Below, piece by piece: positions 47,483 through 49,255 of a stretch of DNA of 64,000 nt (position 1 is its first letter; each line of letters starts with the position of its first letter). The notes beneath the pieces were generated by a model, which was given only the letters and a program-made list of their open reading frames with translations, did no database searches and was not told the origin of the DNA. Origin of the DNA: Betaproteobacteria bacterium (GTDB lineage Bacteria > Pseudomonadota > Gammaproteobacteria > Burkholderiales > WYBJ01); the NCBI GenBank assembly GCA_009377585.1, contig WHTS01000008.1, positions 7,438 through 71,437 of the forward strand, written 5' to 3'. Both the position numbers and the translations under genes were made by a program.

Positions 47483-48595
47483 TCACTTTCTCATCGAGGC
47501 GATCGACGTAGCGAGACGTCCATCACCATGCTTCAGCGCTCGCGTCACGGCATGCGTATTGCCGAAGGTTGGGATGTAGGCCGAATGCTTGCCGGCGCCG
47601 CCGATCACGACCACGATGAAGTCCTCGGCGCGCTCCACCATCGACACCAGCGTGTCTGGATCGGCATCGCCGTACCGGTGCGCGAGCTTCATGCGAAAGC
47701 GCCGCTCGATATTCTCCTTCGAGAACTTGTGCATCGGCACGCGCCCGTGCTCGAACAGGAACTCCTTCACCGCCTGCTTCGAATAGCCGTCGCCGGCAAT
47801 CGTCGCCGCGTGCTCCGGGCTCAACAACACCACGGGTTCGGATGCGTAGTAGGTATTGTTCTGTCCCGTATTGGCGACGGTGCCCGCTATCGTGGTCAGA
47901 AGCCCGGCGGCGGTGTAGCTCTCGTGGTCGTTGACATTGTGCGGCGGCTCGGCGGCGACGACTGTCACGGTGGTGGCTTCGAGCGGAAAACCGCGCTCGA
48001 CATGCAGCGGCTGCCAGGGATTGCCCGCTTCGTTCTCGGCGGCACAGTAGGTGAACTTGGTCGGATCGCCGTAGGTCGACATGTCGCCGATCCCCGGGAT
48101 CGCGCCGCCGATGTTCACCAGCGATAGCCTCACCGCGCGGCCGATGGTCGCGTTGGCGCGATTGCCCGCACCCAGCGCGCTATGCCCGGAATTCATGCCG
48201 AGCTCCTGCGCGCCCGGCCCGTTGACGATGACGAGCGGCGCGCACGGATGCGTGGTCGCCTGGATGCCGTAGAGGTTGAACGGCTCCTCGGCCATCGCTT
48301 CGATGGCGAGCACGACCAACGGAAAATACTCCGGGCGGCAACCGGCCATGACGGCATTGGCCGCCAGGCGCAGCGGGGTCGCGGCGCCGAAACGAGGCGC
48401 CAGCATGGCGATCGGTTGATCCCAGGGTCGATCGCAGTAGGCGAGCATGCGCTCGACGCGTTCGGTCGTGGGCAGCACCACGGGTAGGCCATCGCTCCAG
48501 CCGTGCTGCATGCAATATTCGAACGCGGCCTCGGAATCGTCCTCGGCCTCGAAGCCGGCGCCGGGCTCGACCAGCAGCTTGTCGATGGCGCTCAT
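47483..48595 (-). CDS. unrecognised 370-residue partner of the UGSC selenoprotein
   Basis: A soluble 370-residue protein with no family I can name. Conserved-looking segments are CMQHGWSDGLPVVLPTTERV, AIEAMAEEPFNLYGIQATTH, NSGHSALGAGNRANATIGRA, NIGGAIPGIGDMSTYGDP and KHSAYIPTFGNTHAVTRAL. The last fits a nucleotide- or metal-binding loop followed by a thiol-poor end. The start ATG 48595 overlaps a 13-codon minigene stop (ATGA), which in turn overlaps the selenoprotein stop, so the three are translationally coupled. This points to joint action with the selenoprotein in one reaction or complex; the chemistry is unknown. Confidence 0.8.
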   Translation of the reverse strand: MSAIDKLLVEPGAGFEAEDDSEAAFEYCMQHGWSDGLPVVLPTTERVERMLAYCDRPWDQPIAMLAPRFGAATPLRLAANAVMAGCRPEYFPLVVLAIEAMAEEPFNLYGIQATTHPCAPLVIVNGPGAQELGMNSGHSALGAGNRANATIGRAVRLSLVNIGGAIPGIGDMSTYGDPTKFTYCAAENEAGNPWQPLHVERGFPLEATTVTVVAAEPPHNVNDHESYTAAGLLTTIAGTVANTGQNNTYYASEPVVLLSPEHAATIAGDGYSKQAVKEFLFEHGRVPMHKFSKENIERRFRMKLAHRYGDADPDTLVSMVERAEDFIVVVIGGAGKHSAYIPTFGNTHAVTRALKHGDGRLATSIASMRK

Positions 48596-48663
48596 TTGAG
48601 CATTTCCGCCAGTAGCTTCTCGGCAGCGCTCATTTCAGCATCTCCGCCAGCAGCTTCTCCAGC
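48588..48663 (-). repeat. 38-bp tandem duplication across the selenoprotein/partner junction
   Basis: Two diverged copies of a 38-bp unit holding the end of one gene and the start of the next (coding EKLLAEMLK then MSA). Copy boundaries lie near 48625-48626. Each copy contains an ATGA overlap. Several differences between copies show the duplication is not new. Confidence 0.88.
48592..48633 (-). CDS. 13-codon duplicated minigene between selenoprotein and partner
   Basis: ATG 48633 opens MSAAEKLLAEMLK and stops at 48592-48594. Its start overlaps the selenoprotein stop and its stop overlaps the partner start, both as ATGA. It arose from the 38-bp duplication. It is probably a translational relay more than a functional peptide. 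Confidence 0.35.
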   Translation of the reverse strand: MSAAEKLLAEMLK

Positions 48664-49166
48664 TGCGGCCAGGCGGCGTGGCCGCGGCCTTCCACCTGCT
48701 CGACGCTGATGCCGCCCAGCGGGTGCGGGATCATGATGATGGGCAGGTCGGGCACGCCGAACGTCTTCGCCTGCGCCTGCGCGAGGTTGAGAAACGGCTC
48801 GGTGCAGATGACCGCAGTGCGCAGCCCACGCTTCCGAAGCGTCGCCATGTCGTGGACACTCCACGACGTGCACGACCCTCAATCGGCCATCGCGCTCAAG
48901 ACGAAGTCCGCCTCGCGCGCGAGATCCTCCACGATTTCGGCCGCGGCCGGCCGCGAGGCCGCCGGCTTGCGGCGCTTGACGGTCGCGCTGATCGGAAGCG
49001 AATCTGCGGCGGCGTCGAGCAGGAACTGCAGCAGGTGATCCGCGTTCGCCTTGCTGTTGTCCAGGATGCCGATCCGGATGCCGGCGCCCTCGGCGCGCTT
49101 TCCGGCGGCGATGGTCGCGGCAGCGGCGACCGGGGCTTCAGGCGATACGCAACGTTTCAAGGTCAA
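48630..49166 (-). CDS. UGSC-family selenoprotein with in-frame TGA (Sec96)
   Basis: Read through the TGA at 48879-48881, the gene encodes 178 residues. An N-terminal part (RIGILDNSKANADHLLQFLL, later ADFVLSAMAD) joins U-G-S-C-TSWSVHD and MATLRKRGLRTAVICTEPFL. Both halves are in the same frame and belong together: UGSC proteins, known from computational selenoproteome surveys, have exactly this order, and Cys homologues read CGSC. The U-G-S-C site is a likely selenenylsulphide redox centre. The start is TTG 49166 with GAGGAG 8 nt upstream. A SECIS-like hairpin follows the TGA. A conventional annotation would split this into two hypothetical fragments. selA/B/C/D are not in the window. Confidence 0.9.
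48849..48867 (-). promoter_or_regulatory. bacterial SECIS hairpin for the in-frame UGA
   Basis: After the UGA come 11 nt and then GTCGTGGA-GTG-TCCACGAC, a perfect 8-bp stem with a 3-nt loop that starts with G. The distance from UGA to the loop is 19 nt, and 11 nt separate UGA from the stem base, as in E. coli fdhF. These match the known rules for SelB-binding elements. Confidence 0.82.
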
Positions 49167-49255
49167 TGTCGTGTCTCCTCATTTCCAATCTTGTTCGAGC
49201 AGGCGGATGCAGCGATTGTAAACGTGACCGTTGGTCTGCACCGCTAGCCGCGCGC

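Follow-up and report, generated by a model that had tools for sequence, protein, structure and literature searches.

We estimate at about 0.93 the joint probability that a gene on the minus strand of the window (the whole stretch of 64,000 nucleotides analysed here) is decoded with selenocysteine (Sec) at an in-frame UGA, that its product belongs to the UGSC family and that it has a partner gene. Family matches, a covarying hairpin, the sel genes of the host genome and a TGA shared at one column of the homologues indicate a genuine selenoprotein and an additional member of a known family, which is already described from the GOS metagenome (2008), in Pfam (PF24696) and in NCBIfam (NF041046). 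On its own, the window gene is one more member of that family, and its setting matters more. Its constant association with a partner, together with the reassignment of its fold and the tie to glycine and proline reductases, suggests a testable function for a common freshwater family. The original prediction, which was made from the DNA alone, left out that the family had been described, that an obligate-looking partner lies downstream and that the genome holds 23 further members. Standard gene callers would cut every such UGSC gene in two at the TGA. The features are listed in Table 1.

Table 1. Positions in the window of the UGSC gene, its signals and the partner gene
Feature	Position	Strand	Details or basis
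GAGGAG, Shine-Dalgarno-like	49175..49180	-	8 nt 5' of the TTG start; from sequence
UGSC selenoprotein gene	48630..49166	-	178 aa with Sec96; start TTG 49166, stop TGA 48632-48630
Sec96 codon TGA	48879..48881	-	TGA in 114/116 homologues, Cys in 2
Bacterial SECIS hairpin	48849..48867	-	Covariation, synonymous-codon null, bSECIS-model test
38-bp imperfect direct repeat	48584..48659	-	Copies 48659-48622 and 48621-48584; duplicates the gene junction
13-codon mini-ORF MSAAEKLLAEMLK	48592..48633	-	Bridges UGSC stop and partner start via two ATGA overlaps
Partner gene, 370 aa, presumed 'Unknown_1' domain	47483..48595	-	Homology to the C-terminal domain found in UGSC fusions

Reading frame, TGA column and Sec machinery

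Two minus-strand reading frames of the same phase had been predicted to be split by a TGA alone. This was confirmed, since the sole in-frame stop of the frame 49166-48632 is the TGA at 48881-48879. Reading through it yields 95 aa, U and a further 82 aa, including ...MADUGSCTSWSVHDMATL..., with the UGSC motif at residues 96-99. The distance from the TGA to the next ATG (48848) had been given as 16 codons, but the actual count is 10. The readthrough protein matches PF24696 (UGSC) over residues 7-174 with 148.1 bits (cut-off 25) and NF041046 with 129.1 bits (cut-off 125), each match extending across the TGA. The family assignment, previously made from the motif, is therefore borne out by scores above both cut-offs and is practically certain. 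The UGSC family is among the major selenoprotein families of the GOS metagenome, where it comprises 255 Sec forms and 21 Cys forms, and reaches its highest frequency in the nonmarine samples (PMC2398784).

For comparison, we used 116 family copies. They were drawn from the host genome, from other members of its genus, from two further families in the order and from named MAGs, Dehalococcoidia among them; a few of these loci come from the same relatives, so not all copies are independent. Exactly one stop is found at the UGSC column in 114 of them, and it is TGA and never TAA or TAG, while the remaining two have Cys. No copy carries an extra in-frame TGA elsewhere. Within the UxxC pair, the Sec/Cys position is invariant and the second Cys is 97% conserved. 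The homologues thus read on through the column, as the original prediction required. A sequencing error, one of the hazards it named, is not credible and neither is a pseudogene, because the same one-column pattern recurs in 114 copies from many assemblies. The Cys forms are a paralogue in the host genome (CGTS) and the sole copy of another genome, G005 (CGSC), in which selB is still present. The CGTS paralogue (G000:C44:7810-8313; L033:6814-8388) is without a SECIS hairpin and shares its contig with two Sec paralogues.

A search of the host genome for selA, selB, selC and selD, as had been proposed, found all four. The assembly totals 6.76 Mb in 242 contigs, at 99.4% completeness and 4.85% contamination. 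One contig carries selA (558 bits), selB (442 bits), the tRNA-Sec gene selC (75 bits, anticodon TCA) and a TrxB-like flavoprotein gene, which sits between selB and selC. The selD gene (412 bits) itself has an in-frame TGA. The genome also encodes a selenoprotein of another kind, which is PrdB/GrdB-like (L165:706-1959 (-); G000:C3 near 149660-150019). Its in-frame TGA falls in a UPNC motif, and it scores 97 bits to TIGR04483, whose cut-off is 300. The named relatives are Burkholderiales/Betaproteobacteria MAGs, and the two nearest UGSC orthologues are 93% and 79% identical to the window protein. UGSC genes 52-53% identical were also seen in MAGs titled Bordetella parapertussis (L139, L144, L148-L151, L156), which are probably mislabelled environmental betaproteobacteria.

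The SECIS hairpin

An 8-bp hairpin with a G-first loop had been predicted downstream of the UGA, and both its shape and its spacing were upheld. The stem pairs GTCGUGGA (48867-48860) with UCCACGAC (48856-48849) around the loop GUG (48859-48857). It begins 11 nt from the UGA, with the loop G at 19 nt, and has an MFE of -11.1 kcal/mol. The published bSECIS model demands a loop of 3-9 nt, a stem of 4-16 bp, a spacing of 16-37 nt, an MFE of -7.5 or lower and a G within the first two loop positions (PMC13188914). The window hairpin satisfies this model, including the loop G and the spacing. A scan of the window against Rfam gave no match at the gathering threshold.

Compared with synonymous codons, the window hairpin on its own is borderline (z = -1.8, p = 0.056), and the proof of the SECIS is therefore comparative. 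The hairpin register is common to 54 of the 83 Sec copies, and covariation was run on 46 distinct sequences. In these homologues, 97.8% of the cells are paired and both sides have changed in 6 of the 8 base pairs. Double-changed cells number 33, compared with 7.7 in shuffles, and 0 of 500 shuffles reached the observed value. Sliding the structure off register lowers the paired fraction to 14-44%. The changes include TCG/CAC to TCA/CAT, which is synonymous on both sides, and TGG..TCC to TGC..TGC. Synonymous codons were resampled as the null because the amino acids at the hairpin are conserved. An average of 7.83 of 8 pairs form, while the null has a mean of 5.03 and a maximum of 5.74 over 1000 runs. 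All 47 copies with Ser at the loop position encode it as AGT, against an AGT usage of about 12%. As coded here, the bSECIS model accepts 77 of 83 Sec copies (six fail) versus 23% of resampled sequences (195/830). Neither Cys copy has a SECIS: both form 5/8 pairs, the null value, and have AGC as the loop codon.

These comparisons bear on two readings in which the UGA is not decoded as Sec. A true stop at the TGA would mean a pseudogene, an error in sequencing or a pair of independent genes, and ORFs are indeed obtained both for the initial 95 aa and from the ATG at 48848. However, nearly all homologues share the TGA, the protein is conserved on both sides of it, the hairpin covaries and the genome has the sel genes, which makes a true stop extremely improbable. 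The in-frame TGA in many UGSC family genes could also be read as an ordinary sense codon of the host, but TGA also terminates the UGSC gene and the bridging mini-ORF, and the family copies are free of additional TGAs elsewhere; we give this reading almost no credence. Judged by comparative sequence evidence, decoding of the window UGA as Sec is nearly certain.

Partner gene, neighbourhood and family expansion

The partner had no match in Pfam or NCBIfam, where lax thresholds gave only scattered chance hits. It is, however, homologous to the C-terminal half that twelve UGSC fusion proteins of the host genome carry (phmmer 1e-96 to 1e-38). Among the 116 loci, the partner domain is fused or adjacent in 113 (fused in 38, downstream in 48, upstream in 27), and two of the three loci without it are at contig ends. 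UGSC and partner are the only pair consistently kept together in the orthologue neighbourhoods. An alignment of 35 stand-alone partner sequences shows Cys86 (in MAGC), Asp35, Arg153 and Glu187 to be invariant, and the MAGC Cys is 97% conserved once the fusions are added. The observed fusion and adjacency make it quite likely that the two proteins form a complex and act as a two-subunit enzyme.

In 41 of the 48 downstream partner pairs, the UGSC stop overlaps an ATG or GTG as ATGA or GTGA. In the window, the 38-bp duplication creates the 13-codon bridge between the genes; in the orthologue without the repeat (L076/L134), the UGSC stop directly overlaps an ATG. Two unusual loci were also seen. 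In a fused UGSC-partner gene (L030:4609-5769 (+)), the partner half ends in a repeat-like stretch, RHPRERRGPGGVSFWIPACAGMT, and is apparently interrupted by an inserted repeat. At L035:4637-4966 (+) (G000:C21), a UGSC C-terminal half that begins at the Sec motif is in frame with an acyl-CoA-dehydrogenase-like ORF and is near-identical to the end of L033:10509-11144, a possible recombination or assembly chimera.

Genes for TctC/Bug solute receptors occur in 44 of 74 UGSC loci. Other neighbours are acyl-CoA dehydrogenase, CoA transferase, MmgE/PrpD and, in four loci, TrxB-like genes. The host genome has at least 150 scored TctC/Bug (PF03401) genes of 454 first-look candidates. Near UGSC there are 73 TctC genes in 636 kb, in loci that are not independent of one another; even taking every one of the 454 candidates as real, no more than about 43 would be expected. 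Because TctC genes are so abundant in this genome, the enrichment is only modest. The neighbours fit a role in the catabolism of imported compounds, but this is only suggestive. The CMD, LLM, cupin and TPP enzyme genes near the window gene were considered as substrate clues and dropped, since they are not conserved with it, and so no substrate can be named.

The host genome has 24 UGSC family members, 23 of them with the TGA. Its genus-mates have 17, 19 and 26 matches, a few of which are weak, and the family is above cut-off in 40 of 399 genomes of the order. The relative G484, a 5.7-Mb MAG (98% complete), has 58 matches, 51 of them with exactly one TGA; mixing in the MAG could inflate this copy number, although the stated contamination is 2%. 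One family alone accounts for 23 Sec genes here and 51 in G484, both Burkholderiales. The latter number is near the largest total selenoproteomes published: 57 genes in Olavius Delta 1 (PMC13188914) and, according to that review, 63 in a Methylomirabilota MAG that is possibly a mixture (Cell Rep 2026). Selenoprotein-rich bacteria are said to be mostly anaerobes (PMC13188914). The partner or the expansion may have been noticed in the literature before.

Fold, distant relatives and proposed function

Structure models were obtained with pLDDT 94.9 for a fusion and 91.4 for the window protein. The UGSC domain is modelled as five beta-alpha units in alternation. Sec96 begins the helix that follows strand 3, and Cys99 lies three residues further on. 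Its PDB neighbours, at TM 0.4-0.5, are flavodoxins, flavodiiron proteins, TIR and lumazine synthase. The GOS paper had supposed a thioredoxin-like fold (PMC2398784). The model does not have the thioredoxin order beta-alpha-beta-alpha-beta-beta-alpha and contains no antiparallel hairpin. The flavodoxin-like neighbours, with no thioredoxin fold among the 50 best, contradict that supposition, and the predicted fold is flavodoxin-like. Among the PDB matches that Foldseek listed for the fusion model, none reads as the partner domain, and a PDB sequence search with the family profile gave chance hits only.

Profile comparisons point to a different set of relatives. With hhalign, UGSC aligned to a GrdB/PrdB-like profile with Prob 85.9 and E 5e-6, Sec against Sec, while two control comparisons gave Prob 0.4 and 0.3. 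In an NCBIfam scan of 97 members, models for GrdB, PrdB, GrdF, GrdH and mixed selenoprotein B matched 9-25 members each. These were the sole recurrent hits besides UGSC, had a best E of 1e-5 and covered the Sec-bearing stretch. The UGSC members examined individually score at most about 21 bits to TIGR01917, TIGR01918 and TIGR04483, against cut-offs of 65-602, so UGSC is not itself a GrdB or PrdB. The weak but repeated profile matches suggest that UGSC and GrdB/PrdB probably share a superfamily. A GrdE/PrdA-type pyruvoyl profile was not found in the partner with Pfam or NCBIfam, even at lax thresholds; the partner shows no relation to GrdE/PrdA, so no counterpart to the pyruvoyl half of known reductases can be recognised here. 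A weak PF09338 (Gly_reductase) hit was discarded; it lies in the UGSC domain and was seen in two members, with E 0.045 and 0.32.

The most far-reaching reading, which we consider somewhat less likely than not, is that UGSC and its partner represent a new class of two-subunit selenoreductases derived from the GrdB/PrdB superfamily. The second subunit would be unrelated to the known ones and have a fold not seen before, the class would have radiated in Burkholderiales into tens of copies per genome, each specific for a substrate, and selenium would gate synthesis of the partner through the overlapping start codons. In the explanation that we favour, SelB with Sec-tRNA binds the hairpin and the UGA is decoded as Sec, as the comparative sequence evidence shows. 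The UGSC protein would be one subunit, and the product of the next gene, made by coupled translation, the other. By analogy with glycine and D-proline reductases, the selenolate may attack the substrate and cleave a C-N or similar bond reductively, a chemistry that we regard as plausible but short of probable. The resulting selenenylsulfide with Cys99 could be re-reduced by a TrxB-like flavoprotein, for example the product of the gene that lies between selB and selC. Substrate binding would fall to the partner, which may also contribute Cys86 as a second thiol, and the paralogues could each be specialised for other substrates. At low selenium, ribosomes would halt at the UGA and miss the overlapping start, so synthesis of the partner should drop too.

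Two other readings keep the Sec and change its use. As the GOS paper supposed, UGSC could be a general thiol-disulfide or peroxide oxidoreductase of the thioredoxin-like kind; the partner would then be its protein substrate or scaffold. The UxxC motif and the TrxB-like genes nearby in four loci agree with this, but the five beta-alpha units, the absence of thioredoxin folds from the top 50 PDB neighbours and the profile links to GrdB/PrdB do not, and dozens of paralogues with dedicated partners are ill-suited to a general redox role; we consider it unlikely. It is more doubtful still that the protein binds metal or handles selenium without redox catalysis, with the partner as effector. Some Sec residues have been suggested as metal ligands (review, PMC13188914), and the whole family is without an assigned function; however, few copies lack the UxxC pair, Sec occupies the N-terminal end of a helix in the model and homology to GrdB/PrdB is indicated.

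The proposed selenoreductase can be set against three published systems. GrdB, the selenoprotein B of glycine/sarcosine/betaine reductase (TIGR01917, TIGR01918), and PrdB of D-proline reductase (TIGR04483) resemble UGSC, as modelled, in having UxxC at a strand-helix junction, with Sec aligned to Sec, followed by the next helix and a G-[IV]-P strand, and probably in needing a second subunit. They differ in that UGSC scores far under their cut-offs, has no recognisable GrdE/PrdA and is paired with an unrelated partner domain. In their 2008 paper, the GOS authors noted a fusion of UGSC with an 'Unknown_1' domain (PMC2398784). The window partner is presumably this same domain, as both are fused to UGSC and have a conserved Cys, the identity being drawn from these traits. 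The window gene agrees with the UGSC family (PF24696/NF041046; PMC2398784) in motif, length, TGA position and SECIS. Compared with the family as published, the partner in the window is a separate, coupled gene, the genome holds 24 members, and the fold and the relatives are reassigned.
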